Positions 4,898 to 54,600 of a stretch of 58,633 bases of DNA are shown piece after piece. Under the pieces are notes generated by a model. It was given only the letters and a program-made list of their open reading frames with translations. It was not told the origin of the DNA and did not search any database. The DNA is from Gammaproteobacteria bacterium (lineage in GTDB: Bacteria > Pseudomonadota > Gammaproteobacteria > SZUA-229). Position numbers and translations under genes: made by a program. Where the stretch lies: positions 1 to 58,633 of the forward strand of contig JAOUNI010000012.1 of the NCBI GenBank assembly GCA_029881035.1, read 5' to 3'. The number at the start of each line of letters is the position of its first letter. The stretch's first letter is position 1.

Positions 4898-4982
4898 TTT
4901 TTGTATTTACTTTTTTCACCGTAGTTTTTTTGACTGTACCATAAATACAGATAAAGTAAACCACAATAGAAATGCTTTTGTA

Positions 4983-6905: not shown

Positions 6906-6919
6906 GTTTTCAGCGATTC

Positions 6920-7156
6920 CTAATTTTTGGAGCTAGATTGGCAATAGGTATTAATGCCGACAGCAGCATACAATGGACAAAATTGCACTAGTGCAACTAT
7001 TAGATTCAGTGATCCAAAAATACCTATCAGGGTTGCACTGAACTCATCATCAATCAAACCTAGGTTGATGAAGCCAAAATAGATCATGCTGAGGCTAATG
7101 CTTAGACGAATGAGCTGGTCTACTCGACCAATATTTTTAGATATTGTAAAGCGCAT
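6920..7156 (-). CDS. DUF2892 family small membrane protein
   Basis: This 78-residue protein starts MRFTISKNIGRVDQLIRL. It has two hydrophobic segments (about 17-33 and 40-62) and the family ending CPLYAAVGINTYC with two cysteines. DUF2892 (YgaP_TM-like) proteins are small two-helix inner-membrane proteins, often found as rhodanese-linked domains; standalone forms have no defined function. The start is only 14 bp upstream of the GGDEF-EAL gene start on the same strand, which suggests one transcript. The ATG at 7154-7156 is preceded by a good ribosome binding site (AAGGAA). Confidence 0.82.
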   Translation of the reverse strand: MRFTISKNIGRVDQLIRLSISLSMIYFGFINLGLIDDEFSATLIGIFGSLNLIVALVQFCPLYAAVGINTYCQSSSKN

Positions 7157-7306
7157 ATAGAGTTCCTTCGTTAGTATATTTGGGCGGCTAGTTCCGCTTT
7201 AAAGGGTTATTTTTGGCACTTATCCCTAAAATCTCTAGGGAGAATATAGCACACAAAATTTAAGGTTGTGAAGCAAGGGGTATTACGTGAGAAGAATTTA
7301 TCGTAA

Positions 7307-8086
7307 CTAGTTTTTAGATGAAGCCGTCAGATATATATCATAACGGGTTTTTTTGCTGTGGATCGATATGGAGGGTTTTGTCTCGGTTAAATAGGGGGCA
7401 TGGGCTGGGCGTTTGACCACCACTCTTTCTTTGGCACATTTTAGAGCTGACTCCACTAGTACTTCGCTATTTTCATTTTTGCCCAGCAATCGCTGCAGTA
7501 TTTGCATGTCTTTTTTAACCAGAGCGGACTTTTTCCTTTCTGGAAACATGGGGTCGAGATAAATAACCTCTGGATATTGGATTTTTTCTATATTTTTCAG
7601 ATAGTTGATAGCATCCTGACTGTGGAGGTCAAAATTTTGTGACAGTATTTTGGCGCTTTGCTCATTTTCAAGGCCACGGTTTATACCATCTTTTATCAGT
7701 GTGCTCAGGATAGGAGATTTTTCTACCAGCGTCATCTGGCAGCCCAGCGTGGCTAAAACATAAGCATCACGCGCCAGGCCTGCTGTGACATCGAGTACGC
7801 TAGGAGTTTTTCCCTGTTTCAGGCCAATGGCTTTGGCTATAGCCTGACCACGTCCGCCACCAAATTGTTGTCTGTGAGCGAGTGCGCCATGGGCAAAATC
7901 AACGTAGATACTGGTGTTGAGCTGTTGATCAAATAATTCTATTCTATGATTTGTATAACAGAGCTGCAGGGAAAATTGGCTATTTCTTGAAATAAAGAGA
8001 GGCAGCTGGTTTGCTAGTGAAAATTGCTCTGCCTCTTTTTGACGTCCTTCGTCAAGACAAACGACACATAGGTGAAATTCTGACAT
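7307..8086 (-). CDS. rsmJ: 16S rRNA (guanine-1516-N2)-methyltransferase RsmJ
   Basis: This 259-residue protein matches RsmJ (YhiQ), which uses S-adenosylmethionine to methylate G1516 of 16S rRNA. Visible signatures are RQQFGGGRGQAIAKAIGLK near residues 72-90, the SAM-binding VLDVTAGLARDAYVLATLG near 97-115, and the catalytic-type YLDPMFPERKKSALVKK near 175-191. The C-terminus VVVKRPAHAPYL is also conserved. It is on the same strand as the DUF2892/GGDEF genes, 150 bp upstream of them; cotranscription is possible but not shown. Confidence 0.95.
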   Translation of the reverse strand: MSEFHLCVVCLDEGRQKEAEQFSLANQLPLFISRNSQFSLQLCYTNHRIELFDQQLNTSIYVDFAHGALAHRQQFGGGRGQAIAKAIGLKQGKTPSVLDVTAGLARDAYVLATLGCQMTLVEKSPILSTLIKDGINRGLENEQSAKILSQNFDLHSQDAINYLKNIEKIQYPEVIYLDPMFPERKKSALVKKDMQILQRLLGKNENSEVLVESALKCAKERVVVKRPAHAPYLTETKPSISIHSKKTRYDIYLTASSKN

Positions 8087-9768: not shown

Positions 9769-9862
9769 TCAGTTTAGTCAGAAATAGAAAATCTATTTAT
9801 TGCGCTAGAAGTAGATGACGATTAATCTTAGATACTCTATGATTATCCTTAATATATAACTT

Positions 9863-10597
9863 TTGAATAAATCACTACTCACATTTTTAAAATCGATGAT
9901 GGATAGCGTGCGTGATCTCATGCCTATCATGCTTGTTATCGGTTTTTTCCAAATTTTTGTTTTACAACAGCCGCTGGATAATGTGGCAGCACTGCTTTCA
10001 GGTGCATTTTTTGTCATTTTGGGTCTAACATTTTTTATTTATGGGCTCGAGATGGGACTTTTCCCGATTGGTGAATCCATGGCACATGCCTTTGCACGAA
10101 AAGGCAGTGTGTTCTGGTTATTGGCTTTTTCCTTTGCACTGGGTTTTGGTACAACGGTTGCAGAGCCCGCATTGATTGCAGTAGCGGATGAAGCGGCAAA
10201 AGTAGCAGCCAGGGCAGGTCATATTGATAACCATGCTGAAGCCATTGACAACTATGCAACGGGGCTGCGATTTACTGTTGCCCTGTCAGTCGGTGTTGCC
10301 ATTGTTATTGGTGTCTTGCGCATACTGAAAAACTGGTCGATTCATTACATGATAATGACGGGTTATATCCTTGTCATTGTCATGACAGGAGTGGCACCTG
10401 ATGAAATTATTGGTATCGCTTATGATTCAGGTGGTGTTACAACGTCAACCATTACAGTGCCATTGGTGACGGCATTGGGTATAGGTCTGGCTTCTTCGAT
10501 TAGTGGGCGTAATCCGATGCTCGATGGTTTTGGTTTGATTGCATTTGCATCATTATTGCCCATTATTTTTGTTCTTGGTTACGGGATGATTATTTAA
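9863..10597 (+). CDS. DUF1538 membrane protein, first of pair
   Basis: This 244-residue polytopic inner-membrane protein has about six to seven hydrophobic segments. It carries the DUF1538 signatures [12 protein letters not shown] (about 100-111), [17 protein letters not shown] (about 186-202) and [11 protein letters not shown] (about 222-232). The second protein repeats all three motifs, so the pair probably forms a heteromeric complex. The motif-rich helices suggest a transporter or channel, but no substrate is established. The next gene begins at the base after its stop codon, so translation is probably coupled. The start is uncertain: TTG at 9863 gives the longest protein, ATG at 9896 is the alternative, and neither has a good Shine-Dalgarno sequence. 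Confidence 0.82.
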
Positions 10598-39414: not shown

Positions 39415-39469
39415 TAATAGCCAGCATCATAGGCAAATAAAAAATGTAAAGACTCACAATTCCTGCTTA

Positions 39470-39495
39470 ATGGCCCTGAAAAGGGCCATTTTTTT
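39470..39495 (+). terminator. Rho-independent terminator of amiC
   Basis: Stem ATGGCCCT / AGGGCCAT (8 bp) with GAAA loop is followed by TTTTTTT. It separates amiC from the convergent usher-like gene and insulates the nnr-tsaE-amiC operon from the island. Confidence 0.88.
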
Positions 39496-39512: not shown

Positions 39513-42500
39513 TTAATTAGATTTTATTGCTTCAAGCGTAAAGTCAATGCCATTGACGTAAGGGTCGTCGGCCTTGACTGTAACGGTCTCTTCACTCAAT
39601 GGACGTAAACCAAGTGTGCTCAGTTGTTTTTCCGAAACACGGACATGGTATTCACCCAGCGGAATCTTACTGAGGATGTAGAAGCCATCGTAGGCGGTTT
39701 CTGTTGTTGCTACAACACGATTTTTCTGATCAACCAGCTCAACAATAACTCGCCCCACACCATTTGTTCTGCCATCCTTTAACAGGGAGACTGTGCCGTC
39801 AATTTCTCCAGTGGTAAAAATAGGGAAGTCTACCTGTATGGCATGTCCCGGTCTTGGTACAACTTGAATACCCTCAAGTGCTACTGTCCATAATGGATCT
39901 GTCAGTGTTTCCGGAGCAATGACCACATTTGTAGAGTTATGTGCAGTTATGCCTGTAAGGAATAAAATACCTTCCTCGTCCGAACGCCCCTTGTTATAAC
40001 CACCATTTAAGCGAACGCCAATATCCCCAAGGGCTTCTTCATTGTCGTCGAATATTCCATCCTGATTAGCATCAAGGAAGAATCTTGCAGACACACTACC
40101 TTGATTGGCAAGTGTACGTGAATCCTGTTGCCAACGATTACGTCTTGGCTCGTAACCGAATCCAACGGAAAAGCTGACATCAAGATTGATTTCATTATTA
40201 GTGTTGTAACGCGCACCAAAACTGAGACTGTACTTACCGGATAGTTTGTTAGCAGTGGCACTGTATTCCGTTATATCCTGTTGTAGAGAATGATTAATGC
40301 CAAAACTCAATCGGTAATCTCCGTACTGTCCTGGATCCAGCGTTAAGGCTAAATTGGTTAACTCTTTATCAGGTTGAAGTTCATAGCCAATGGTGCCACG
40401 TAATCTTATATGTTCAATATTGGTGCTTAGCTGGAAGTTACCATTGGCTGTGGCCTGTTGTCCCGTAACCTTTTGATGGGTTAAATTGTTTGTCATAGCA
40501 AAGCCATGAGTGCTCATCGATAATTGATTGGTTATTTCAAATAACTCACCACCGTTTGTATATTGGTCACGTTTAAAACCAAATGACACCGGAATGCGTG
40601 GCAAAAATGATGCTGGTATTGCAGTACTAAGATCGAGTTTACTGCTGCGTTTTATAGGTTCTGCAGTAGGTAGATATTCCTCACTAAAAAAATTACTCAG
40701 ATAGATATCATTAAAACCAATAGTGATTTCATCAATGCGTGATTGCAAGTTGATCTCGGTCGCACTACCGCTTTCCGAGTCACTGATAATGGTTGCTGAT
40801 GCTAGAAGGGCATCCCAGTATCCGGTCAAACTGGCTCCCAGATAATTATGTTGCACCACGGCAGTTACTTCCTGAATGGGGATACTAACTAAATTAAATG
40901 TACTCGACAGGTTTTTGCTGATGCCATAGTCATATTGAACAGTGGTGCGCTGACTTCCAATATCATCTGTAATTGCAGAAGCCCTGTAATAATGTTCACC
41001 CTGTTTAGTCATTGACTGGCTTAACTGAAAGTTTTTATCTTCTTCCTTTATCTCACCCTTGGGCCCGTAGAAAACCAGACGAAAGTGATTGTTGCCAAAT
41101 AACAGAGGTACATCCTGAAAATCATATTGACCATTGATCGCTGTTTGTTGATAACCAATCAATGCGTTGTTTTGATAAAGCTCCACTTCCCAGCCCGGTA
41201 GTAATTCACCGATGAAACGGTGACGGTCATATTCAGTCTGCATGCCGATGGGGAAATTGCTCGCAGTTACACCGGCCTTAAGTTGCCCCGGTAAATTGAT
41301 TAGACCAATGCGAGGCTCAGCAACATGACCGAATTGATATTCTCTGGCATTCATGAAGCCAAGTAATTCACCATCTGGGTCGGTACGGCCAAAGGTGACA
41401 CGAAAATCGTCAATTCCATCTTGGTCGTTAGCGGTGAGATACCAGGTTGATTCATGTTGCATAAGATCAGCAGTGGCATAAGTCGTCGAATTAAAAGTTG
41501 TAACGTTTCCGGTATCTGAAAAACGCTGGCCTAGTTGCAGTGTTTGATCGACAAATGGAAGAGTGTAGTCTTTGTAGGCTTCATGATGTTTTGGATATTG
41601 CTGATCAGCTTTATTTAATCTTGAAAGTGCTTTTTCAATGCGCTTTTCACGTTCTATACGGGCCAAAAAAGGTAGTTTTAACTCGGATTTAACCCACACT
41701 CGTGAGGCGTATAGATCAATATCCAGCTTCATATTTAACCAGACACCAAGAAGGTTTGATTCTACATAGATGTCACCATCGAGATTTTTTACAAGTTCAC
41801 TTTTGTATGTGCCAGGTATGCCTTTGAGTATTACTTCATTACGATCAGTATCAAGAGAAAATGTATTATCTTCTTTGATTATAAAGCCACTGGCAAAATT
41901 CGGAGTAACAGTAATGGCAATATCGAGGAGGCTAGCTAGGGCACCCAATGGCAGCATGATGATGTCTTTGTGCTGATAGGCGCCGATGACATCATCAAAA
42001 GTATATGACTCAATACGTATTTCCAAAATACGAAGATCAGAGTCTTTAGGTATCCATGCAGAGTTATCGGCCTGCTTTTGAGGGATCGCTGATTTCTCTG
42101 GTGGCAAGGCCACAGCCGGGGTGACGATAGCTTTAGTCTCAATAGGTAGTAGAGGCTCAACTTTTTCTGCAGGCGTTATTTCGAGTGATGTTTTTGTTGG
42201 TGGTTCGGCTATCGGCAAAACCGTAGCGGGTATTTCTTCAACAGGAATAATATTTGCATCAGGTGTTACTACATCTACAACCTCTGTTTGCTCTGTAAGT
42301 TTCGCTGGTGGGATACTCTTCTCTGGCTCAGCCAACTCATCAACCTGTGGAATAATGAGTTTATCAGTGTTATCAATACCCAGCGTGTTGTCTATGAGCA
42401 GTACTCTAGTTTCGATGCCAACATTTATTGGGTCAATAATTTTTTCTGGTTCTAATTCTGTAGCGGTATTTTGCGGAATATCTTGTTCAGGATTTTCCAT

Positions 42501-42743
42501 AGAGGTCGTGCTTTCATCCGGACTGATAGTGTCTGGTTCTATCTCACCGTCGGATAAAATATCTTTTAGTGATTCATTGATATCACCGAGCTCATTGAGG
42601 TGCTCAGCAGTGGGGGGGAGGGTGTTATCAATACCCCGAGCGTTATCAATGAGCAGTATGCTTTCTTCGGCGCGGGCAGAACCTGTTATCAAACACAGTG
42701 ACAGCAGGGGCAGGCAAAAATGAAAGACAAGTTTGTGAACCAT
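39513..42743 (-). CDS. Atypical fimbrial usher-like outer-membrane protein
   Basis: This 1076-residue secreted protein has a signal peptide ending near SARA (22-25). An acidic, proline-rich low-complexity region (about 26-230) holds two copies of LLIDNxxGIDNT (30-41 and 115-126). From about 235 onward it resembles ushers: a plug/E-set-like segment WEVELYQNNALIGYQQ, QYDFQDVPLLFGNNHF and VFYGPKGEIKEEDK, then many barrel-like strands. The C-terminus has an EF-hand-like DANQDGIFDDNEEA and a carboxypeptidase-regulatory/Cna-B-like domain (GFYILSKIPLGEYHVRV). The classical PapC N-terminal signature is not seen, so it is an alternative-class usher by inference. The start is probably GTG or ATG at 42743. 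The chaperone gene is 12 bp upstream. Confidence 0.72.
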   Translation of the reverse strand: MVHKLVFHFCLPLLSLCLITGSARAEESILLIDNARGIDNTLPPTAEHLNELGDINESLKDILSDGEIEPDTISPDESTTSMENPEQDIPQNTATELEPEKIIDPINVGIETRVLLIDNTLGIDNTDKLIIPQVDELAEPEKSIPPAKLTEQTEVVDVVTPDANIIPVEEIPATVLPIAEPPTKTSLEITPAEKVEPLLPIETKAIVTPAVALPPEKSAIPQKQADNSAWIPKDSDLRILEIRIESYTFDDVIGAYQHKDIIMLPLGALASLLDIAITVTPNFASGFIIKEDNTFSLDTDRNEVILKGIPGTYKSELVKNLDGDIYVESNLLGVWLNMKLDIDLYASRVWVKSELKLPFLARIEREKRIEKALSRLNKADQQYPKHHEAYKDYTLPFVDQTLQLGQRFSDTGNVTTFNSTTYATADLMQHESTWYLTANDQDGIDDFRVTFGRTDPDGELLGFMNAREYQFGHVAEPRIGLINLPGQLKAGVTASNFPIGMQTEYDRHRFIGELLPGWEVELYQNNALIGYQQTAINGQYDFQDVPLLFGNNHFRLVFYGPKGEIKEEDKNFQLSQSMTKQGEHYYRASAITDDIGSQRTTVQYDYGISKNLSSTFNLVSIPIQEVTAVVQHNYLGASLTGYWDALLASATIISDSESGSATEINLQSRIDEITIGFNDIYLSNFFSEEYLPTAEPIKRSSKLDLSTAIPASFLPRIPVSFGFKRDQYTNGGELFEITNQLSMSTHGFAMTNNLTHQKVTGQQATANGNFQLSTNIEHIRLRGTIGYELQPDKELTNLALTLDPGQYGDYRLSFGINHSLQQDITEYSATANKLSGKYSLSFGARYNTNNEINLDVSFSVGFGYEPRRNRWQQDSRTLANQGSVSARFFLDANQDGIFDDNEEALGDIGVRLNGGYNKGRSDEEGILFLTGITAHNSTNVVIAPETLTDPLWTVALEGIQVVPRPGHAIQVDFPIFTTGEIDGTVSLLKDGRTNGVGRVIVELVDQKNRVVATTETAYDGFYILSKIPLGEYHVRVSEKQLSTLGLRPLSEETVTVKADDPYVNGIDFTLEAIKSN

Positions 42744-42755
42744 GTTTCATTGCTG

Positions 42756-43646
42756 TTACAGCTGTAAACGGGTCTCAGCAATCAAACCTGTTTGTTCGTT
42801 TTTACCTGATTCCAGAAAAAGAATACGTACATAACCTTCTTTCAGGGATACACCTGACGGAATGTCTAATGAAATGGAAAAATGCCTGAGTGTATTAGGG
42901 GAGTAAACAGCAATACCGTTGGCCAGAGCGATAACTACGGGTGCGCCACCATTACTCGGTGTGAATATCGCACGGAAATCTCCATAAACAGACTGGTTAC
43001 CGCTGCGATGCATGTCTACAGAAATACTGGGTTTAGGCTCAACTTCGGTAGCAGGAATGAAGCGTGCATTATCCAGTTTTAATTCACTTTCGAGTTTTCC
43101 ATGGCGAACAATGACTGGTATTGAAATACCTACGGCTGGAATTATTTCGATGGTAATAGTTTTTTGGTCTGCATCAGCGGTATTTTTTATACTACTTTTT
43201 GATGCCTTTGGTAGCATCTGAAATAACATATGTGAGCGATATTCGCCAGTTTCTAAATCTTTGGGTTTTCTCAGCATCAGCCTGACAACCTGTGATTGCC
43301 CTGGAGGCAGAGTTAATTGTCTGGGTGAGTAACGGATGAGAGGATCCGAAAACATGCCTTTTTCATCCGCTTCAACAGGTACAAATTCGCCTTTGTCATT
43401 CATGTTCTGGCGTAGGAAAGAAATACGAAATTCACCTGTTTCTGTACCAGGATTCATCAGTGTAACCTGGGCTGTGCGCGTGCTTTCATCAAATACAACG
43501 CGTGATGGTGTCACCATAATGTTAGCTGCAGCATTGACTACAGAAGGCATAATCAGCGCTAAAACTATTAACGGCTCGAGTATGTGTTTGAAGATGGAAT
43601 TGAATTTACCCGTTGAAATTGAATTAGCTTTCATAACATAGCCCAT
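42756..43646 (-). CDS. Periplasmic fimbrial chaperone (PapD-like)
   Basis: This 296-residue protein has an N-terminal export segment (about 17-40, ILEPLIVLALIMPSVVNAAA). The first immunoglobulin-like domain has VTPSRVVFDESTRTAQVTLMN, then IRYSPRQLTLPPGQSQVVRLM, the chaperone motif that donates a strand to pilin subunits. EYRSHMLFQMLP corresponds to the F/G region. A second domain follows to the C-terminus (VSLKEGYVRILFLESG). The start may be MGYVMKAN or the internal MKANS (position 5). It lies directly upstream of the usher-like gene and downstream of the pilin terminator. Confidence 0.85.
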   Translation of the reverse strand: MGYVMKANSISTGKFNSIFKHILEPLIVLALIMPSVVNAAANIMVTPSRVVFDESTRTAQVTLMNPGTETGEFRISFLRQNMNDKGEFVPVEADEKGMFSDPLIRYSPRQLTLPPGQSQVVRLMLRKPKDLETGEYRSHMLFQMLPKASKSSIKNTADADQKTITIEIIPAVGISIPVIVRHGKLESELKLDNARFIPATEVEPKPSISVDMHRSGNQSVYGDFRAIFTPSNGGAPVVIALANGIAVYSPNTLRHFSISLDIPSGVSLKEGYVRILFLESGKNEQTGLIAETRLQL

Positions 43647-43674
43647 TTTTAATTTTTATTTTATTTCATTTTAC

Positions 43675-43710
43675 AAAAAAAAGGGACAATCGTTTGCGAT
43701 TGTCCCTTTT
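43675..43710 (-). terminator. Strong terminator between DUF4402 pilin and chaperone genes
   Basis: On the minus strand a perfect 14-bp stem (AAAAGGGACAATCG / CGATTGTCCCTTTT) with loop CAAA runs into an extended T-run of eight. It sits inside the cluster, 38 bp after the pilin stop and 29 bp before the chaperone start. Confidence 0.9.
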
Positions 43711-43748
43711 GATTCATCTGTTCCACAACTACCCTGGAGACATGATCT

Positions 43749-44279
43749 CTATTCGTAGTTTGCAGTCACTGTGTAAGGCGCACCACCTGTAGCAGTATTA
43801 GCTGTCGAGTAAGCCCCCGCTGCCTGACTTGCACCTAGATGTAGGGTAGCACCAACGCTAAATGAACCAACACCAGGGAGAGCATTACCTGTTGCGGCTA
43901 AAGTTTGTGTGAAAGTATCTACTACCATATTGTTACCTGCAGCTACGCCATCAGACAAAACACCTGCAGCAAAAGCTAAGCTAAATGTTTTTGCTGCCTC
44001 ACCTGTAACAGTGAATACACCGGCGGTACCAACTGCTGATGGTAGGGCATTCGCATCACCAGTAATTGTGCGTGCGCCAGCAGTGTCAAGTACCACGGTA
44101 CCAGCAGCGGTACCACCAGCGACATCACCAAAACTCATCGCAGTGGTTTCTGTGACCAATAGTGGAGCTATAACGTTTGCAGTTGCGGTACCGTCAACAA
44201 CATCTGCTGTTGCCGTGCCTACGCTACCAGCGAGAAGAGCGGTAAGGCTCATTTTTAATACTAAATTAGTTTTCTTCAT
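43749..44279 (-). CDS. DUF4402 secreted protein, major pilin candidate
   Basis: This 176-residue protein has a signal peptide (MKKTNLVLKMSLTALLAGSVGTATA). The mature part is one DUF4402 domain: TATANVIAPLLVTETTAMSFGDVAGGTAAGTV, an ARTITGDA turn, and the C-terminal AGAYSTANTATGGAPYTVTANYE with a terminal hydrophobic strand suited to strand exchange. Ala, Gly, Thr and Val dominate and there is no cysteine. The adjacent chaperone and the strong terminator after the gene suggest it is the abundant subunit. ATG 44279 is chosen because AGAGGA lies upstream; an in-frame start at 44312 would precede that site. Confidence 0.82.
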   Translation of the reverse strand: MKKTNLVLKMSLTALLAGSVGTATADVVDGTATANVIAPLLVTETTAMSFGDVAGGTAAGTVVLDTAGARTITGDANALPSAVGTAGVFTVTGEAAKTFSLAFAAGVLSDGVAAGNNMVVDTFTQTLAATGNALPGVGSFSVGATLHLGASQAAGAYSTANTATGGAPYTVTANYE

Positions 44280-44458
44280 TGTTCTATCCTCTTGCAAGAG
44301 ATGTGAATTCAAGGTTATTTACATTCATTTCATGCATCTTGATACTGAGTGTAGAAGTTGGTATCGCGAATGCAAGTTTGTTACTGATCTTTATATATTG
44401 TTGCTTATTACATTTAATATCTCGGCCCGTTCATCTTTGCATGAGCCGATTAATATAT

Positions 44459-45001
44459 TTAGTTGTAGTCCACTGTCACCGACATCAGACCTGAATAAGC
44501 ACCAAAAGCCTGGTTGCTTCCAACATTTAGTGTGGCACCAACAAACAATGTCTGTTGGCCATTACCATCTAGCACTCCTGATGGTGTCGGTGAACTGGTA
44601 AAGTTGTCTACTGTCATGGTGTGAGAGGCTGTGTCACTCAACACGACAGAAACAGGTAATGAAATTGAGTAAGTAGCACTAGCATCACCTTGTACATCAA
44701 AGCTGGCCGGGCTACCGGCTACCGAGGTATTAATATTGGCACCGCCAGTGGCTGAACGTGCGCCGCCGGGGGTCATTACAATAGTTCCAGCAGTTGGACC
44801 CGATGATATATCACCAAATATCAGGCCGTTAAGCGTAGATATGGTCATAGTGCTGATGATATTGACATTCACTGTTGCTACTGCAGTCACAGCTTGTGCA
44901 GGGGTCCATAACATCATGGCGGTGGCCAGGCTAACTATCGCACAGGCAAGGCTGAGTTTTTTTGCCGAGTTAGTCATAGTGTTGATTTTTTTCGTTCCCA
45001 T
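44459..45001 (-). CDS. DUF4402 secreted protein, second pilin-like subunit
   Basis: This is a protein of about 180 residues with a hydrophobic signal region (KKLSLACAIVSLATAMMLWTPAQA). One DUF4402 domain follows: TVNVNIISTMTISTLNGLIFGDISSGPTAGTIV, GARSATGGA and the ending AFGAYSGLMSVTVDYN. It is similar in layout to the neighbouring DUF4402 proteins. The start is uncertain (ATG at 45001 or the internal MTNSAKK); neither has a strong ribosome binding site. A small hairpin (TTCGTGTC / GACGCGAA, 45031-45051) lies upstream of the start. Confidence 0.78.
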   Translation of the reverse strand: MGTKKINTMTNSAKKLSLACAIVSLATAMMLWTPAQAVTAVATVNVNIISTMTISTLNGLIFGDISSGPTAGTIVMTPGGARSATGGANINTSVAGSPASFDVQGDASATYSISLPVSVVLSDTASHTMTVDNFTSSPTPSGVLDGNGQQTLFVGATLNVGSNQAFGAYSGLMSVTVDYN

Positions 45002-45106
45002 AATCAATAAGATAGACTTAATTTTACAAGTTCGTGTCGATTTGACGCGAAATTAGCGATAAAAAGGGGATTTTGTAAGATTAACGGTACTTAATATAGA
45101 TAATGT

Positions 45107-46105
45107 CTAATTGTAGTTAACTGTTACGGAGTAAGGTGTACCACCACCAATGCCAGTTGAGTACGTCCCTGCAGGTTGTGAAGGTGCCAAATTTATAGTG
45201 GCTCCAACCTGAAAAATTTCCAGGCCAGCTGCAGGTAAGGCACCGAGACTGTTGTTTGTAAATCCGTTAACGGTAATTTGTTGTCCAAGCGCATTTTCCA
45301 GTATTGCGGGACCAGTAATAAGCAGGGAATAGGTCAAGCTGGGTTCTCCAGTAATTTGAAACTCACCGGCTGCACCAGGGCCTACAGTGAGGATCTGGGC
45401 ATCACCAGTAACACTTCGTGCTCCGAGTGCGTCCATGATTACTGTGCCTGATTGGCTGCCACCCGCTATGGTGCCGAAATTCATTGCCACAGTTTCAATA
45501 ATACCGATGGGTGTCAGTGCAGTGGCAGTAGCGCTGCTGATTACAGATAATATTGCACCTGACTGGTCAAAATCTACTGTAAAAGCCGGTGAAGTATAAA
45601 GACCTGCTGCTTGCGGAAAAGTGGCGCTCAAGTCACCCTGAAAGGTTAGAGTGATGGGGAGATTGTTTGTCGTTAGTGTTACTGGCAGAGCCGTTGGTGT
45701 TGGAATTAATGTGGCTTCGCTCACCAGTACGTTGGTCAAAGGCATGGCAGTGCCTGGTCCCGCGAGAGGTGCGGGTATTGCACTCCAGCTGATGGTAAAA
45801 GGAAAAGTGCCGCATACAGTTCTACTTTTTGTGTTGTCGAGTGTGACTGTGAAAGTGGTGACCGGGTTGCTTGTTGATGAACTGATAGCGCCGACTGTCG
45901 TAATAACTCCGGCATTATTCATCATTAAAGTACCGCTGCCTGATTCAATGGCAAAAGCACCAAAAGATAGAGACTGAGCGCTGGTCATTACCCACTTTGT
46001 TTTGCACTGATTGACATTCGGTGGTGGTGGTGCTGCCGTTACTCCATAAGATAAAAGAGCAAGAGTGATGAAGCTGAAAATGTTTATTGTCTGGTGTCGT
46101 AACAT
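45107..46105 (-). CDS. Two-domain DUF4402 protein, possible fimbrial tip adhesin
   Basis: This 332-residue protein has a signal peptide (about 1-25, ending SYGVTAAP). The N-terminal domain (about 26-185) resembles a divergent DUF4402 fold, with cysteines 34 and 98 likely forming a disulfide. The C-terminal domain (about 190-332) is a regular DUF4402 unit: IGIIETVAMNFGTIAGGSQSGTV, GARSVTGDAQ and PAGTYSTGIGGGTPYSVTVNYN. One extra domain fused to a pilin domain is the layout of two-domain tip adhesins such as FimH, so a tip role is inferred. It starts 4 bp after the DUF1566 gene stop. Confidence 0.75.
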   Translation of the reverse strand: MLRHQTINIFSFITLALLSYGVTAAPPPPNVNQCKTKWVMTSAQSLSFGAFAIESGSGTLMMNNAGVITTVGAISSSTSNPVTTFTVTLDNTKSRTVCGTFPFTISWSAIPAPLAGPGTAMPLTNVLVSEATLIPTPTALPVTLTTNNLPITLTFQGDLSATFPQAAGLYTSPAFTVDFDQSGAILSVISSATATALTPIGIIETVAMNFGTIAGGSQSGTVIMDALGARSVTGDAQILTVGPGAAGEFQITGEPSLTYSLLITGPAILENALGQQITVNGFTNNSLGALPAAGLEIFQVGATINLAPSQPAGTYSTGIGGGTPYSVTVNYN

Positions 46106-46109
46106 GACT

Positions 46110-47207
46110 TTATGTTCTCTGTGCTGACTTGTTAGAACGTACCAGGCGAATATGCTTGGGTTTTTCTTTTAAGTCATTGATGGCGATGCCGTTACGAAAT
46201 AAAACATACCAGGCGTGTTCGGGATGATCTTCATTGGATGAAGACGTCCAATACCAGCTAGGCAAAGCATCAGGAAAGTAATGGCTGTTGATCGTAACCG
46301 TTGATGAGTTTTTTTCAAGGCTTACGATAGAGAGCATTTCTTCACGAGTAGGCAACCGCCAGTCAGAATAACCGCAATAGTTTTGAGCGTTAACTGCCTG
46401 TGTGTATGACTGTGTGTCACAACTTATATTACCTTTACATTTTCCTCCATCAGCAAATCCTTGAGGTATGTTTGTTAAAGAGGGCTGGAACCAGGAGTAT
46501 GAATTATTTTTATCATGAATACTGCCGTCATCAGATTTTACTTCCCAAATTAAACCACTGGCCATGTCTTCAACGCATGACCATTTCTCTGAATTTTCAG
46601 CCAGGGTTTTTCCATCGATATCTCTTTTTAAGTACTTGTTTATAATAGATTTATTCGTCTTTTGAAGATCTGTTTTTGCAATGACCTGGTTGCCTGTTTT
46701 GGGTGCCTTAAATACAGATTTTACTGGTGTTGAATGAGTTTTATCAGCCAATTTTTTTGTTGTAACCAGGGGCTTTATAGTTGGAGATTGAGGTTTGGCT
46801 ATTTCAATTTTTTTTGGAACTATCTTTTCAGGTTTAGTAATTATGGGCTGAGCTTTTACAGCTTCTTCTATTTTTGTTTTGTCGACTTCAGCAGTGACCT
46901 CTTCCTCTATTGGTTGTGCAAGAATCTCGTTCAGGCTATCAGTAATATTATTAATGCTGTTGGAAATGTTATCCAGATTAGTGAGAGATATTTTTGACGA
47001 AACCATTGGTGCACGATTGATCATGCCTGAGTCAGAATTAATATTGATATCCTGGGCATCTGCATCTATGTGTAATTCTTCTGAATAAGTTAAAGGTGCG
47101 GTTAATAACGTGCTTAAACATAATACGACAGTAGCAAACGCCTCGAGCATGATAAAAGGCCGAGCCAGAATGTTCTGTAGTGATCTTGTAGATAATTCGT
47201 CATTCAT
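46110..47207 (-). CDS. DUF1566 (Lcl C-terminal type) surface protein
   Basis: This 365-residue protein has an N-terminal hydrophobic export segment (about 19-42). A Lys/Pro/Thr-rich linker (about 100-200, KIVPKKIEIAKPQSPTIKP) precedes a C-terminal DUF1566 domain (about 208-360). Its signatures are ASGLIWEVKSDDGS, CGYSDWRLPTREEMLSIVSLE and WYWTSSSNEDHPEHAWYVLF. Four cysteines in the domain (near SCVED, KCKG, SCDT, YCGY) could pair. DUF1566 occurs in surface proteins and in the Legionella adhesin Lcl, so binding is plausible but unproven. It heads the minus-strand operon. Confidence 0.8.
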   Translation of the reverse strand: MNDELSTRSLQNILARPFIMLEAFATVVLCLSTLLTAPLTYSEELHIDADAQDININSDSGMINRAPMVSSKISLTNLDNISNSINNITDSLNEILAQPIEEEVTAEVDKTKIEEAVKAQPIITKPEKIVPKKIEIAKPQSPTIKPLVTTKKLADKTHSTPVKSVFKAPKTGNQVIAKTDLQKTNKSIINKYLKRDIDGKTLAENSEKWSCVEDMASGLIWEVKSDDGSIHDKNNSYSWFQPSLTNIPQGFADGGKCKGNISCDTQSYTQAVNAQNYCGYSDWRLPTREEMLSIVSLEKNSSTVTINSHYFPDALPSWYWTSSSNEDHPEHAWYVLFRNGIAINDLKEKPKHIRLVRSNKSAQRT

Positions 47208-47932: not shown

Positions 47933-49156
47933 ATGATGATTATTTCATCCAAAATTAAAAGTTTTTATTTTTGTCAATGCGTTGGCATGCATGAGTTTTT
48001 GTTTCGCACATTGCTTGTGTTAATCCTGTCGTTAGGTTCTTCACAAATTTTTGCAGCAGCTGGTGATGTAATCGACAACATAGCCATCGTTAATTACATT
48101 TATCAGGGCGTGCCATTAACTCAGGAGTCCTCTCCATTTGGCAACCCCCAGCCCGGTATTGGTAATGGCGCATCTACCTCTTTTATTGAAGATCGCCTGA
48201 TTAACTTTAGTATTGCCTCCAATGATGCAACTTTAGTGCCCGTCACCTCAGCTCAAACAGCAACAGTTTTGACTTTTACCGTTACTAATAACGGCAATGC
48301 CACACAGGATTTTTTATTAACAGCGGTAAACACCGCCACCAGTCCTTTTGCATCAACCATAGATAATTTTGATCCGCTTTCGCCAATGCGGGTATTTGTT
48401 GAAGATGGAACTACATCGGGTTATCAGCTTGCTGAAGACAAACTCACCTTCATTGATGAATTGTCTGCGGGTGCATCTGTAATGGTTTACATAGTTACAG
48501 ACATGCCCGTAGTTTTACCTGGTGATGTGGCCGCGGTATCACTAATCGCACAAATAGCCAGTGGTGGTGCAGTGGGCGAAGGCCTTGCTATTACCAATGA
48601 TGATAATGGCAATATCAGTCCTGCTGGGATTTATGGTAATGGGGCGACATCAGTGACTGTGGGCGTAGCAACCACACTGCCCAACTCGGCAGCCATGGAA
48701 ACTGTGTTCAATGATCCTGCCGGTTTAAATATTGAAGATGTTGATAGCACCGGACTGGCACAGGATATTGCATCAAATGGACAGGCCTCGGATTCAGCTG
48801 CATTCCAGGTTCAGGGTTCCCCCGTCGAGCTAATTAAATCCTTTACGGTAATAGATTCTTCAGGTGGTTCAGATCCTCGTCCAGGATCAACTTTGCATTA
48901 TCAAATTAATGTGGTGATTGGTGGTGCTAGTAATATTAATAATTTGATTATTACTGATCAGATCCCTGCAAATACCACATTTACCCCTGCCAGCCTGTCT
49001 CTCAATGGCGTGGTCCAAACCGATGCCAGTGATGCACCTATTGATTATTCGGAATTTAACGGCAGCAATATTGTTGTCGATTTAAGCCAGGGTGGAACTG
49101 TTTCAGTTGTACCCGCCACAACTAACTTAATTGTTTTTGATGTCACTATTAACTGA
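47933..49156 (+). CDS. Secreted DUF11-like surface protein, paralogue 1
   Basis: This 407-residue protein has an export signal ending near SSQIFAAAGD (about 36-45). The start is either ATG 47933 or ATG 47987; the latter gives a more typical signal length. The mature part begins AAAGDVIDNIAIVNY and has a beta-rich domain with TVTNNGNATQDFLLTAVN (about 106-123). A C-terminal DUF11-type module follows (about 302-407: KSFTVIDSSGG, LHYQINVVIGG, ITDQIPANTTF). DUF11 modules are stalk domains of surface proteins. It is paralogous to the protein at 50081 and heads the plus-strand operon. Confidence 0.75.
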   Translation: MMIISSKIKSFYFCQCVGMHEFLFRTLLVLILSLGSSQIFAAAGDVIDNIAIVNYIYQGVPLTQESSPFGNPQPGIGNGASTSFIEDRLINFSIASNDATLVPVTSAQTATVLTFTVTNNGNATQDFLLTAVNTATSPFASTIDNFDPLSPMRVFVEDGTTSGYQLAEDKLTFIDELSAGASVMVYIVTDMPVVLPGDVAAVSLIAQIASGGAVGEGLAITNDDNGNISPAGIYGNGATSVTVGVATTLPNSAAMETVFNDPAGLNIEDVDSTGLAQDIASNGQASDSAAFQVQGSPVELIKSFTVIDSSGGSDPRPGSTLHYQINVVIGGASNINNLIITDQIPANTTFTPASLSLNGVVQTDASDAPIDYSEFNGSNIVVDLSQGGTVSVVPATTNLIVFDVTIN

Positions 49157-49166
49157 GGAAAATGTT

Positions 49167-49679
49167 ATGAAAAAAATAAAAGAGAGCTTTAAATTAATTT
49201 TTAGCATGATGATTTTATCATCGTTATTTACAGCGAATGTTTTTGCAGAAAACGAAAAAATAGTGCTGACCAATAAAGTTTTAAAACAAGTTATAAAAAA
49301 AGATAAGGATGGAAATATAACATATGACTATGTAGAGCCAAAAACAGCGCTACCAGGTGACATCATGATGTACTCCATCACTTTTGAAAATATTGGAAAT
49401 GATTCGGCTGAGAATATTGTTATTAATGATCCGGTTCCTAACAACTCAAAATATCGAGTTGGTTCTGCTGCTGGAGAAAATACCATGATAAGTTTTTCTA
49501 TTGATGGTGGGAAAAATTTCGGTAATCCGGAAGAGTTGGTTGTGAAAGATAAAAATGGAAAAGAGTGGACGGCCAAACCAGAAAGTTACACACATATTAG
49601 GTGGGTTTATAACAAAGCATTGGCACCGGGGCAGAAAGGCGAAATTACTTTCAAAACTCAGATAAAAGGCAATGAATAA
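49167..49679 (+). CDS. Small secreted DUF11-like protein
   Basis: This 170-residue protein has a signal peptide (about 1-25, LIFSMMILSSLFTANVFA). One DUF11-like beta domain follows: PGDIMMYSITFENIGNDSAENIVINDPVPNNSKYRVGSA, then a gap region, and PGQKGEITFKTQIKGNE. It is lysine-rich, unlike its acidic neighbours. ATG 49167 is chosen because GAGGA lies 7 nt upstream; the start overlaps no gene and lies 10 bp after the preceding stop. It may be a linking or anchoring subunit of the same surface structure. Confidence 0.75.
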   Translation: MKKIKESFKLIFSMMILSSLFTANVFAENEKIVLTNKVLKQVIKKDKDGNITYDYVEPKTALPGDIMMYSITFENIGNDSAENIVINDPVPNNSKYRVGSAAGENTMISFSIDGGKNFGNPEELVVKDKNGKEWTAKPESYTHIRWVYNKALAPGQKGEITFKTQIKGNE

Positions 49680-49725
49680 AAAACTAATGAAAGTATTTGG
49701 AAGTTAATTACATGAGAATTTAATT

Positions 49726-49953
49726 ATGCGAATGCAAAACGAAAAATTTATCTCGCACCAACGGCTCGTTAACAACGAGCCTTTGGTCGTTTTAGGGAAT
49801 GGTAAAAAACGTGACGCACCGGTTATTTACCACCGGCGTAATGCGCCTCTATTCGTCATCGGCCTGGTTAGTAGTGACGGGCCTTGCGAAGGTACCGGTC
49901 CACCATATGGACCAGGCCTACCAGATGAAACGGGGCCACCAGATACAGGGTGA
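49726..49953 (+). CDS. Small Gly/Pro-rich hypothetical protein (uncertain)
   Basis: This is a 75-codon frame beginning MRMQNEKFISHQRLVNNEPL and ending in a Gly/Pro-rich tail (EGTGPPYGPGLPDETGPPDTG region). A weak ribosome-binding-like TGAGAA precedes it. No signal peptide or family is recognised. The frame overlaps the hairpins of this gap, so the coding interpretation competes with an RNA-structure one. Confidence 0.3.
   Translation: MRMQNEKFISHQRLVNNEPLVVLGNGKKRDAPVIYHRRNAPLFVIGLVSSDGPCEGTGPPYGPGLPDETGPPDTG
49757..49787 (+). terminator. Strong hairpin between surface genes, terminator-like
   Basis: ACCAA-C-GGCTCGTT / AACGAGCC-T-TTGGT with a 3-nt loop gives 13 pairs with one mismatch, followed by CGTTTTAGGG. 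It may terminate or attenuate transcription, or stabilise the upstream mRNA. Confidence 0.5.
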
Positions 49954-50080
49954 ATTGACAGGAATCGATTTGCTCAGAATGAAATAAATTAGAAATGAAA
50001 AGGAATAATGCTTACGTTGAAATGGTTTAACGAAAGCAAAAGAAATACACAATATTAATCTTAATAAGAGGAAGACGAAG

Positions 50081-51454
50081 ATGAAAAACTTCAAACTAAA
50101 AAGGCTATTAGGCCTGACGTTGATAGGTGGTTTAGCCACCTTGAACGCGTCAACGGTGTTCGCCGCTGCAGGCGATACAATTAGCAATACAGCAACATTA
50201 AATTATAATGTTGCCTCTGTTGCTCAAACAGCGATTACTTCTGCGGCAGCAGACTTCGTTGAAGACCGTAAGATTATCTTCACAGTCGCTGAGTCAGGTG
50301 GTGCAACCACTTCGGTATCGCCAAATGGTATTCTTCAGGTGCAAACCTTTACCATTACAAATAATGGTAATGCCACGCAGGATTTCCTGTTAACCGCACT
50401 TAATCGAACCACTGGAACAGCTGATCCACATGGTGGCGCAAATGATATCTTTGATGCCACTTCTGTTCAGGTACGTGTAGATTCAGCACTGACTACTGTT
50501 CTGCCCACGACTGATGTGTTTGATGGAATAGCAACAGATTCAGCTATCTTCATCGATAATTTGGCAGCGGGTACCAGTCGAACGGTTTACATCGTCTCGA
50601 CCATACCGGGTACAGTGACGAATGCTCAGGTGGCAGTCATGTCACTGGTGGCTCAGGTAGCCGAAGGTGCAGGCACAGGTGTAGCTGCTGATGCGATTAT
50701 GTTAGATGATAATAATCACGTCAGTCCGGCTGGTACATTCAGTAACGGTACCCAAACCACGGCTGCTGTTGCTGGCGCAACAAATGTTAACGGCGCACTT
50801 ACTGTAGAAACCGTGTTCGCTGATGTGGCTGGTACGTTGAATAGTGCGGGTGCTGCGGATAGTGCTTCCAATGGGCAGCATTCGGATGACGACTCCTACA
50901 CAGTTAGTTCAGCTGCATTAACAGTAACCAAGGCGGTCGTCCCATTGTGGGATCCTATTAACGGAAACACCAGTCCAAAATCGATCCCTGGTGCCTACAT
51001 GCAGTACACCATTACTGTGGCTAATGCGGGTCCTGCTGCAGCTGTTCTGACAACTTTGTCTGATGCACTTCAGGCTGCTGTTGGTTCACTGGCTCTTGAT
51101 CCTAACCTGATCCTGGCAACAGCAACAACACCTGTTCCGGGTGCTGTCGTCGGTGTTGATATTGAAAGTGCAATTGGGTCAGGTATTCGCATCAATACTG
51201 CTGCTGGTGTTGGTGCGGGTACTTCAAGACTTTCAGCTGGCCTTACCTATTGCACAGGTGATATAGGTGATGCTGATACCGATGGTTGTGCCTATACAGG
51301 TGGTGCCGGTGGTACTTTGAGTATTACTTTCTCTGATGCTGCTCTTGCAAGCATCGCAGGTATGCTGGCAGAAGCAGGTCCACCTGCGTATGCAGAAGGT
51401 GAGCTCCTATCGGGCGAGTCTGTTGACATTGTGTTTAACGCAATCGTTCAGTAA
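50081..51454 (+). CDS. Secreted DUF11-like surface protein, paralogue 2
   Basis: This 457-residue protein has a signal peptide (about 1-29, LGLTLIGGLATLNASTVFA). The mature start AAGDTISNTATLNYN and the block TITNNGNATQDFLLTALN (about 90-107) closely match the protein at 47933. RTVYIVSTIPG, NNHVSPAGTFSNG and ASNGQHSDDDS repeat the same order. The C-terminal DUF11-type region (about 285-457) begins LTVTKAVVPLWDP. It contains one cysteine pair (YCTGDIGDADTDGC). It is Ala/Thr/Gly-rich. Good ribosome binding site AAGAGGAAG. The giant gene follows. Confidence 0.78.
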   Translation: MKNFKLKRLLGLTLIGGLATLNASTVFAAAGDTISNTATLNYNVASVAQTAITSAAADFVEDRKIIFTVAESGGATTSVSPNGILQVQTFTITNNGNATQDFLLTALNRTTGTADPHGGANDIFDATSVQVRVDSALTTVLPTTDVFDGIATDSAIFIDNLAAGTSRTVYIVSTIPGTVTNAQVAVMSLVAQVAEGAGTGVAADAIMLDDNNHVSPAGTFSNGTQTTAAVAGATNVNGALTVETVFADVAGTLNSAGAADSASNGQHSDDDSYTVSSAALTVTKAVVPLWDPINGNTSPKSIPGAYMQYTITVANAGPAAAVLTTLSDALQAAVGSLALDPNLILATATTPVPGAVVGVDIESAIGSGIRINTAAGVGAGTSRLSAGLTYCTGDIGDADTDGCAYTGGAGGTLSITFSDAALASIAGMLAEAGPPAYAEGELLSGESVDIVFNAIVQ

Positions 51455-51502
51455 GTACGGACACTGAGCTAGAACGTTGTTGCATCTAATGAACAAGTGG
51501 TT

Positions 51503-51540
51503 GCGTACTCGTTTTGATCGAAAGATCGAAGCGAGTGCGT
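51503..51540 (+). other. Leader hairpin with GAAA tetraloop upstream of the giant gene
   Basis: The stem 51503-51519 / 51524-51540 gives 17 consecutive pairs including four G-U, closed by a GNRA loop GAAA. Core arms are ACTCGTTTTGATC / GATCGAAGCGAGT. It lies 105 bp upstream of the preferred start codon. It is very stable as RNA and much less so as single-stranded DNA of the other strand, because G-U pairs become A-C. Confidence 0.65.
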
Positions 51541-51629
51541 GCGCCTGTGCGTGGATGAAACAGAATCTTGCTCAAAATGAAAAACAAAATGAGACAGGTT
51601 GTATCGCAACAGATAAACATGATGCAGCC

Positions 51630-51671
51630 CGTCTTCCAGTAACCATGAAAACTCGTGGTTACTGGAAGACG
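51630..51671 (+). other. Perfect 16-bp hairpin overlapping the giant gene start codon
   Basis: CGTCTTCCAGTAACCA (51630-51645) pairs perfectly with TGGTTACTGGAAGACG (51656-51671) around a 10-nt loop. It is followed by TTATTTTTATC. The ATG at 51645-51647 sits at the stem-loop junction, so folding would hide the start. The same structure resembles an intrinsic terminator or attenuator. Confidence 0.7.
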
Positions 51672-54600
51672 TTATTTTTATCATCAATGCTGGCATTGCC
51701 GGTAACCACATCGGCGGTGACACCACCGGGCACCAGTATCAACAATATTGCCGCAGCAACATTTGATATTGGTGGCCCTGCACTGGTGGTAAACAGTAAT
51801 ACGGTTACAGTTACCAGCACGATTATTAGTACACCATCAACAATTACTTTGTATCAATATGATCCGACCGGCGCAGGCATGGTTAACCTGGCAGCGCCAA
51901 CTCAGTTTGCGAGCAGTGGTCCTCCAGGAACAGGATTTGTTGTATCACCTGATCCGACAATACCATTGCCGGCTGTTGGAATAACAACGCTTGATGCAAA
52001 CGCACCAATTTCGATGAATCCAGTTGATGTTTATCATGCAGGTGAACCAGTATTTATTCTGCTTCAGGACCTTGATCAAAATCTTAATCCTGGCGTTCAG
52101 GAAACAATCATTGTCACCGTAACTTCTTCAACAGGTGATCAGGAAGAGTTGATATTGACTGAGACCGGTGTTGATACAGGTATTTTTATTGGTTATGTGC
52201 AATCAGCATCGAGTGCTGTTGCCGCCTTTAACGGGGTGCTGAGTTTAGGCGCTGATGATCAGATTACAGTTAATTATGTGGATCAATATGATGGCACTGA
52301 TTCAAGTGTAAATTCAGCACTGGTCGATCCGTTCGGTAAAGTATTTAAGAGTAATGATGGTTCATTGCTCGATGGTATTGTCGTCACACTTCTTGATGGC
52401 GCTGGTAATCCGGCAACAGTTTATGGTGATGATGGAATCAGTCTCTACCCTAACGTAATCACAACAGGTGGTTCGGTGACAGATGCTAGCGGCACCATTT
52501 ATAACTTCCCTGCTGGTGGTTATCGATTCCCACTGTTGGTACCGGGTGATTATCAAATTGTTTTAACCGTGCCGGCAGCTTTGACCGTACCATCACAAGC
52601 AACAATTGTTGATTTGCAGGCATTACCTACAGCGCCTTATGCACTGGATGCCAATGCCTCATTTGGTAATGTCTTTAATGTCCCTGCAGGGCCACCGATG
52701 CATGTTGATGTGCCAGTAGATCCAAAATTCTCATATTTGTTATTAAATAAATCTTCATCCAAAGATCGTGCAGCAATTGGAGATTATATTCAGTACACAC
52801 TTAAGCTCGATAATACCGATACTGTTGCTATTGCTAACAATACCGTGATCACCGATATATTGCCGAACGGTTTCCGCTATCAGACATCATCTGTTCTGGT
52901 CAATGGGACTGCAGCTGCAGATCCGATTGTTTCACCTGATGCTCGCAACCTGCAATTTAATGTGGGCACATTATTGCCGGGTGAATCTGTTGAAGTTAAA
53001 TATGTCACAGAGATTAGTTCAGCAACGGCTAACGGTAAGGCAATAAATATTGCGGTCGCGGTCGATGATCTTGGTGTGGCTTCTAATACAGCTCAGTCCT
53101 CAGTAAAAATATTTGAAGACCTGATCAAGAGTCGTAGTTTTATTGTCGGTAAAGTGATTAATGGTGAATGTGGTGACGACGATAGAAATCTACCCGGATT
53201 CCCAGATGCCAGAATCTACATGGAAGATGGTAGCTATGTTGTCACCGATAAAGAAGGGCTGTATCACTTTGAAGGTGTGGTGCCAGGCGTGCATGTGGTA
53301 CAACTGGATACCGAAACCATTCCGGATAATCTTGAAATTGTTGCCTGTGAAGAGAATACACGCTTTGCAGGTAACGTTTATTCACAGTTTGTTGATGTCA
53401 AAGGCGGCACTATGTGGCGTGCAAACTTTTATGTCAGGCAGAAAGATCCGATTAAAGACATCGCCAGTCTGTCGCTGGAAAGTGATTTGAATAATGAAGA
53501 AATAAAATACACCGTAAATCTCTCAAATGGGCGCATACCTGTAACGAATTATCGTTTGATGGTGATATTGCCTGAAGGTGTTCATTACATTGCAGGTAGC
53601 AGCAGTATCGAGTCAGAACAAATCAATGAACCTGAGATCATTGATAACATACTGGTGTACAGGTTGGGTGATATGAATAGCGATTGGCAAAAACATTTGC
53701 GTCTTCGTGCTCGTCTGAGAGATAAAGCAGATGGTGAGATAATTACCTCTGCCATGTTTACTGTTGATACAGAAATGAAAAAAACGGTACGCTCACAAGC
53801 TGTGAAAAACAAACTGAATGTTAAACGTAAAAAAGTCGAAAACAGAGACATGGTATTCCAGGCCCACTTCAAACCTATGGGCACTGAATTAACGGAACGA
53901 AGCAAAAAAGCGATTCGATTGATCATTGGTGATCTTAAGGGGGCAGAGGTCACACTAAATCACGTGGTTGGTCACACCGATGGCGATCGAGTGGCAAAAC
54001 GGAGTTCATGGCTGTTTAGCACAAATGATGATTTATCAATGGGCCGTGCACAGGCAGTCAGTAATTTCCTGGTTAGAGATTTAGGTGTTAATGCTGATAA
54101 GGTCAAGCTTGAAGGGCGTGGTAGCAGAGAGCCCATTGCAACCAATGCAACAGTTGAGGGTCGTGCCAAAAATAGACGTGCTGAACTTTATATAACAACA
54201 AAAGAAATTACTGACCCCGGCAGTGTTGTTTTGACTGTGCCAAAGAGTGAAGTAGCTAGTGCTGAATTGATAGGCCAGCCTGTTTACGATATTGATAAAA
54301 AATATAATTTAGTACCACAGTTAGATCAGTCGACAATTAGTGATTACGATGAACACTGGATTAAAAATGCTGAACCGGGTACTGAATGGTTGATGCCGAA
54401 AAAAGATGGTTCACCAGTCATTCCTGCGGTAAATATTGCGGTTAAATATAATCCTGCTGATAAAGTTGAGCTGCTGCAGAATGGTGAGCCAGTTAATCCA
54501 TTATTTAACTTTGGCACCATTACAAATAAAGCCTCAACAGTTGCACGTGTTTACTGGCAGGGTATTCATCTCATAAAGGGTGAAAATAAATTTGAATTTG

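Follow-up and report, generated by a model that had tools for sequence, protein, structure and literature searches.

Organization of the Locus

The stretch analysed here (the window) comprises positions 1 to 58,633 of contig JAOUNI010000012.1 from a Gammaproteobacteria bacterium (assembly GCA_029881035.1), the genome of which measures 2.69 Mb and has Gammaproteobacterial metagenome-assembled genomes (MAGs) as its nearest named relatives. Its minus strand carries an operon that, on the evidence below, very likely encodes a complete chaperone–usher system that forms a new and deeply diverged class. The gene set, the homology, the usher fold, the linkage and the hairpin described in what follows all rest on computation.

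Six open reading frames (ORFs) follow one another on the minus strand from 47207 to 39513 with short gaps between them, as one operon. The first gene (46110–47207) encodes a secreted Lcl_C/DUF1566 protein (Pfam E 1e-28), which is restricted to near relatives and is a possible surface adhesin. It is followed by a two-domain DUF4402 protein, the likely tip (45107–46105, E 4.6e-22, with an N-terminal copy at 7.5e-4), and by two single-domain DUF4402 subunits (44459–45007, E 2.5e-31, and 43749–44312, E 3e-18), the TTG starts of which, at 45007 and 44312, were probably called too far upstream. A terminator-like hairpin on the same strand (43679–43710) marks the boundary between these pilin genes and the gene of a periplasmic PapD-like chaperone of 296 amino acids (42756–43646; PapD_N E 3.1e-5, above the cut-off). 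The last gene (39513–42743) encodes the usher, an outer-membrane assembly platform of 1076 amino acids, and a further terminator-like hairpin (39469–39490) separates the end of the operon from a convergent amidase gene. Matches to sigma-70 promoters in the region are at chance level (18 found against 20.9 expected). A preliminary description of the window had listed the same six genes, and all six ORFs are open at the positions given there; the set is not due to chance, because it recurs in dozens of unrelated genomes.

Homology and Fold of the Usher

The usher is missed by the common search models. It has no PF00577, PapC_N, TcfC or CooC_C match in Pfam even at E 1 and no match in NCBIfam, and no PF00577 match is found in the whole 2.69-Mb genome. 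Among 17 usher relatives the PF00577 model matches three, weakly (best 6.9e-4). As a single-sequence query against the PDB the protein gives nothing useful, and the profile of its family retrieves the SdrD-B domain only. Together with the automatic annotation as a "carboxypeptidase regulatory-like domain-containing protein", the lack of any usher model match would fit an outer-membrane barrel of a general kind that bears a Cna-B-like stalk, such as a porin or an anchor, located beside the chaperone by chance.

The profile–profile comparison speaks against such a barrel. Relatives of the usher were gathered from whole genomes and GTDB contigs, and an alignment of 55 was built; the viral contigs searched contain zero relatives. 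Sets of known ushers, gathered independently with PF00577 and PF15976, were then compared with this alignment by HHalign. The alignment of the family with the PF00577 ushers extends over 527 columns, which run from the last barrel strand ahead of the plug to the end of the first C-terminal domain (CTD1), with a probability of 98.9% and E 2.6e-17; with the PF15976 (CooC-type) ushers the values are 97.7% and E 2e-12. As controls, shuffled columns give E values of 0.2 or higher and the TonB-dependent receptors, another family of large barrels, give 0.047. Domain by domain, the profiles match those of the PF00577 ushers with E 1.2e-5 for the plug, 2.2e-10 for the barrel with the plug, and 1.8e-7 for CTD1. 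The check with the usher families PF00577, PF15976 and PF16967 that had been suggested beforehand thus has a divided outcome, with no match of the single sequence to the models at E 1 but clear homology between profiles.

The predicted structure points in the same direction. The AlphaFold2 model, which covers residues 215–1076, has a mean predicted local distance difference test score (pLDDT) of 89.3 and a predicted template modelling score (pTM) of 0.72, and consists of an N-terminal domain (NTD), six barrel strands, a plug of six strands, 18 further barrel strands, CTD1 and a second C-terminal domain (CTD2). The same arrangement is known from FimD, whose 24-strand barrel holds a plug and is accompanied by a single NTD and a pair of CTDs (PMC12122975). 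In the protein of the window the barrel spans residues 397–865 (40149–41555, minus strand, as for all parts of the usher), the plug, inserted after strand six, residues 507–573 (41025–41225), where the family signature GWEVELYxN is found, and CTD1 residues 882–977 (39813–40100). In a Foldseek search of the PDB with this model, ranks 1–18 are all FimD or PapC structures (best E 4.7e-26), compared to 1.3e-6 for the best barrel that is not an usher, and VIA-align gives Z scores of 17.8–20.6 for FimD and PapC versus 15.2 for the next barrel. The VIA alignments begin at model residue 165–171 and so cover the part that follows the NTD; the NTD itself is judged by its sequence profile.

A model of the large protein that was not an usher barrel had been set in advance as the outcome that would count against the assignment; what is obtained is a 24-strand barrel with a plug, with FimD and PapC as the top PDB matches and with profile homology to PF00577. 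The placement of the plug, the strand count, the PDB ranking, the profile homology and the conserved linkage to a PapD-like chaperone largely refute the general barrel, which we regard as extremely improbable. The large protein is an usher homologous to the PF00577 ushers, and this was revealed only by profile–profile and fold comparison.

The Two Ends of the Usher

It is the two ends of the protein, the NTD and CTD2, that make this usher atypical. The NTD (residues 237–379, 41607–42035) shows no profile homology to known usher NTDs and resembles Cu_amine_oxidN1 (PF07833) in several relatives (best match 1.9e-9). This agrees with the earlier remark that a PapC N-terminal signature is not visible, as no PapC_N match appears at E 1. 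CTD2 (residues 979–1074, 39522–39809) is SdrD_B/Cna-B-like, also as first noticed; the Pfam SdrD_B domain matches residues 989–1039 with E 2.1e-10, the C-terminal part contains SdrD_B in all 28 usher relatives scanned, and the CTD2 profile compares with the PF00577 ushers at E 0.066. The Cna-B-like part was also considered as the sign of a Gram-positive-like adhesin, which was rejected since it occupies the place of CTD2.

The NTD is preceded by an acidic low-complexity extension (residues 26–235, 42039–42668), in which residues 26–230 contain 43 Asp/Glu against 12 Lys/Arg. The long acidic region reported in the preliminary description is therefore real, but it is not a defining feature of the branch, because it is confined to near relatives; in loci L060 and L065 (loci of relatives are numbered with an L) the NTD is preceded by 69 and 36 residues, respectively. 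A role of the extension as a functional hallmark was rejected, as most of the usher family is without it. The extension includes repeats of LLIDNxxGIDN and a segment DINESL, and a similar NIxxSL occurs in the N-terminal region of the Lcl_C protein (46110–47207). The two segments could possibly constitute a shared docking motif.

C-terminal SPOR domains are present in the ushers of 9 of 28 chosen long relatives, a further difference from the PF00577 ushers, and separate SPOR proteins flank the Pseudoalteromonas locus (SPOR cases at L042:7786–11400, L088:8809–12378, L099:8506–12462, L105:8620–12768, and L184:4467–4952 and 9769–10407). It is possible that these domains and proteins tether the usher to septal peptidoglycan. 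One usher-family ORF in an alignment also matches POTRA_2 (ShlB-type) at 2e-15.

The Chaperone

The chaperone is, as judged from its family profile and conserved residues, a member of the PapD-like superfamily. Its nearest solved relative is CsuC (1.9e-5 in the comparison of the family profile with the PDB), with CfaA, weaker, also among the nearest. Pro108, which is invariant in 73 of 73 relatives, aligns with Pro59 of CsuC, the sole invariant residue of the chaperone superfamily (PMC4654587). In the same 73 relatives, conservation is 97% for Arg49 of the first strand and 80–100% for the motif EYRSH at residues 135–139, with Arg137 at 95% and His139 at 94%. The classical chaperone Caf1M has its anchor, Arg20/Lys139, in domain 1, and Arg49 may be its counterpart, as classical chaperones have their anchor Arg in the first strand too. 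Arg89 of CsuC, which goes with a Tyr/Arg pair in domain 2, is a hallmark of the archaic and alternative chaperones; in the profile alignment Arg89 falls on His139, two residues from the conserved Arg137.

WxLIP_PGBD, an immunoglobulin (Ig) domain that interacts with WxL proteins in Gram-positive bacteria, weakly matches 6 of 16 chaperones (best 1.1e-3), and EfmWxLIP1 is among the PDB matches at E 0.08.

The DUF4402 Subunits

All four subunit domains in the window belong to DUF4402 (PF14352), which Pfam lists as of unknown function. In the DUF4402 proteins that adjoin these ushers (n = 114), the strand that precedes the Ig-like core has hydrophobic or small residues in alternation with Thr, Ser or Asn (alternation 0.39, versus a mean of 0 and a maximum of 0.118 upon shuffling), as expected of donor strands. 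In classical pilins the penultimate residue is commonly Tyr, and a Gly stands 14 residues before the C-terminal end; here Tyr is found at position −2 in 88 of 157 proteins and Gly at −14 in 60 of 157.

In the model of the two-domain protein the second domain has a pLDDT of ~93, and the best fold matches are CfaB fusions, CsuE and FimH. The first domain with the linker (model residues 34–197) aligns weakly with CooA (Z 6.4) and with self-complemented CsuA/B (Z 6.2). The linker contains a donor-like strand, SATATAL (protein residues 191–197), and the N-terminus is rich in Pro and Cys and does not alternate, a pattern that suits a tip protein with a cis-complemented first domain. The two-domain protein is likely the tip. 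The proposal that DUF4402 proteins take the place of standard pilins is thus supported by the fold, by the N- and C-terminal signatures and by the conserved linkage; the proteins look like donor-strand pilins, the weak fold matches being support and not proof.

We have also considered that export of the DUF4402 proteins by the usher and chaperone yields a coat or matrix on the cell surface, comparable to the F1 capsule, instead of a discrete adhesive pilus. The DUF4402 copy number varies widely, up to seven in a row in L083, and the divergent neighbour genes encode DUF11 surface proteins, both of which would suit a coat. Near relatives, however, keep the two-domain tip-like protein without an alternating N-terminal strand, and we hold a coat or matrix to be somewhat unlikely.

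The divergent neighbours (47933–57461, plus strand) comprise three DUF11/B_ant_repeat proteins and a protein of 1994 amino acids with DUF11, SdrD_B and OmpA domains, the last third of which resembles an outer-membrane barrel. This cluster is possibly a second surface structure.

The Hairpin between the Pilin and Chaperone Genes

The hairpin at 43679–43710 has a stem of 12–14 bp followed by a T run. A similar hairpin is found in 10 of the 45 gaps scanned, and across five near relatives both sides have changed in 4 of 12 pairs, with the pairing kept by these compensatory changes. The hairpin likely acts by partial termination and would thereby set the ratio of subunits to ushers, allowing many of the former for each of the latter.

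Linkage and Spread

The linkage was studied in 80 GTDB loci and the window, the content being judged within the DNA fetched for each locus. A chaperone is present in 76 of the 81 usher loci, and both a chaperone and DUF4402 in 68; most of the loci that lack them are on short contigs. In 57 loci the chaperone gene immediately precedes the usher gene on the same strand, with a median gap of 17 bp. In an even sample of the phylum the full-length usher occurs in exactly 3 of 249 genomes, and DUF4402 is above the cut-off in the same three. Further conserved neighbours were sought and none is family-wide, lipoprotein/SPOR-type genes in Pseudoalteromonas apart.

By record titles the loci belong to Gamma- and Alphaproteobacteria, Acidobacteriota, Zixibacteria, Nitrospinaceae, Eisenbacteria, Desulfobacterota, Chlorobi, Bdellovibrionales/Oligoflexia and Myxococcaceae, and the cultured carriers include Pseudoalteromonas, Rheinheimera, Catenovulum and Thalassomonas. 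The trio of usher, chaperone and DUF4402 protein is thus spread across about ten bacterial phyla. This differs from the known classes: beta- and gamma-proteobacteria are the only carriers of classical and alternative systems, and the range of the archaic class takes in alpha- to delta-proteobacteria as well as Cyanobacteria and Deinococcus-Thermus (PMC4654587).

In L083, from a Nitrospinaceae MAG, the seven consecutive DUF4402 genes (3317–7600) are followed by the chaperone and the usher. On plasmid 2 of Polaromonas sp. JS666 (L185, 2849–10452), a conjugative plasmid, the whole DUF4402–chaperone–usher cassette is flanked by a pair of IS6 transposase genes and therefore may move between hosts. 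RefSeq gives plasmid-borne usher relatives the same "carboxypeptidase regulatory-like" name, and calls their neighbours DUF4402 proteins and either a hypothetical protein or a "fimbria/pilus periplasmic chaperone". Our limited literature search found no paper naming DUF4402 or PF14352, although such papers may exist, and no paper linking ushers of this kind to pili, an absence that is not proof. The earlier suggestion of a little-described branch was right but understated, as the branch is widespread and unrecognised in annotation.

Placement among Chaperone–Usher Classes

The system is a member of the chaperone–usher superfamily, but usher features that define the classical and the CS1 class are missing from it. 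Compared to the classical class, its usher has no PapC_N-type NTD, as far as the sequence profile tells, and compared to the alternative (CS1/CooC) class, with usher families PF15976 and PF16967, it has profile homology over the barrel, weaker than that to PF00577, and no TcfC or CooC_C match. The archaic Csu system of Acinetobacter has the closest chaperone of solved structure, and probably has donor-strand-type subunits and a two-domain tip in common with the present one; it differs in that the subunits here are DUF4402 proteins and in the position of the conserved chaperone Arg.

These likenesses raise the alternative that the system does not make up its own class and belongs, in a diverged form, to either the archaic (sigma, Csu-like) or the alternative (CS1-like) one. 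Besides the CsuC and CfaA relationship, the fold matches of the DUF4402 proteins include CsuE, CsuA/B, CfaB and CooA, and the archaic class is the most widespread (PMC4654587). On the other hand, no SCPU, Fimbrial_CS1 or CooC_C domain is found in the proteins of the window, and neither the NTD nor CTD2 of the usher has profile homology to either known type. In addition, the PF00577 and CooC-type ushers score 219.8 against each other in HHalign, compared to 157.5 and 116.9, respectively, against the new family; the known sets are closer to each other than either is to the new family, which is therefore a deep branch. Membership in the archaic or alternative class is consequently judged unlikely.

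Several observations weigh against a complete pilus system of a new class. The NTD, the domain that recruits chaperones in FimD, compares with the PF00577 ushers at E 0.0066 and a probability of only 5.8%. The DUF4402 proteins have weak fold matches, with a best Foldseek E of 4.4e-3 and a VIA Z of 7.6 that falls inside the tool's noise band; the first domain of the two-domain protein is modelled with a pLDDT of about 50–75, and most relatives are MAGs. With these points taken into account, we still favour a new class, and it is reasonably probable that it constitutes a fourth one, outside the classical, alternative and archaic classes, with about ten phyla, its own chaperone-recruiting NTD, the EYRSH signature and the DUF4402 pilin fold.

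Proposed Assembly and Implications

The operon very probably builds a surface protein fibre by the chaperone–usher route. For subunit complementation, assembly order, the fibre itself, the role of the tip and the expression ratio, we infer the following scheme. The DUF4402 proteins would enter the periplasm as pilins with an incomplete Ig-like fold, and the chaperone would lend its G1 strand to each of them and bring it to the usher NTD. The usher would then put in place of the chaperone strand the N-terminal strand of the following subunit, with its (A/V)-T alternation, the growing fibre leaving through the barrel. The two-domain protein would come first, as the tip, its inter-domain strand filling its own N domain and leaving no free donor strand. 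The Lcl_C protein may be a co-exported adhesin or an accessory, and the hairpin would lower the expression of the chaperone and the usher relative to the subunits.

In this way, the DUF4402 family, together with proteins wrongly named "carboxypeptidase regulatory-like", becomes a testable secretion system, present in many environmental phyla with few or no recorded chaperone–usher pili. The profile of the usher family can be used to correct genome annotation, and the family provides an outgroup for usher evolution. It also raises the question of how the chaperone docks when the recruiting domain of the usher shows no recognisable relationship to those of known ushers.

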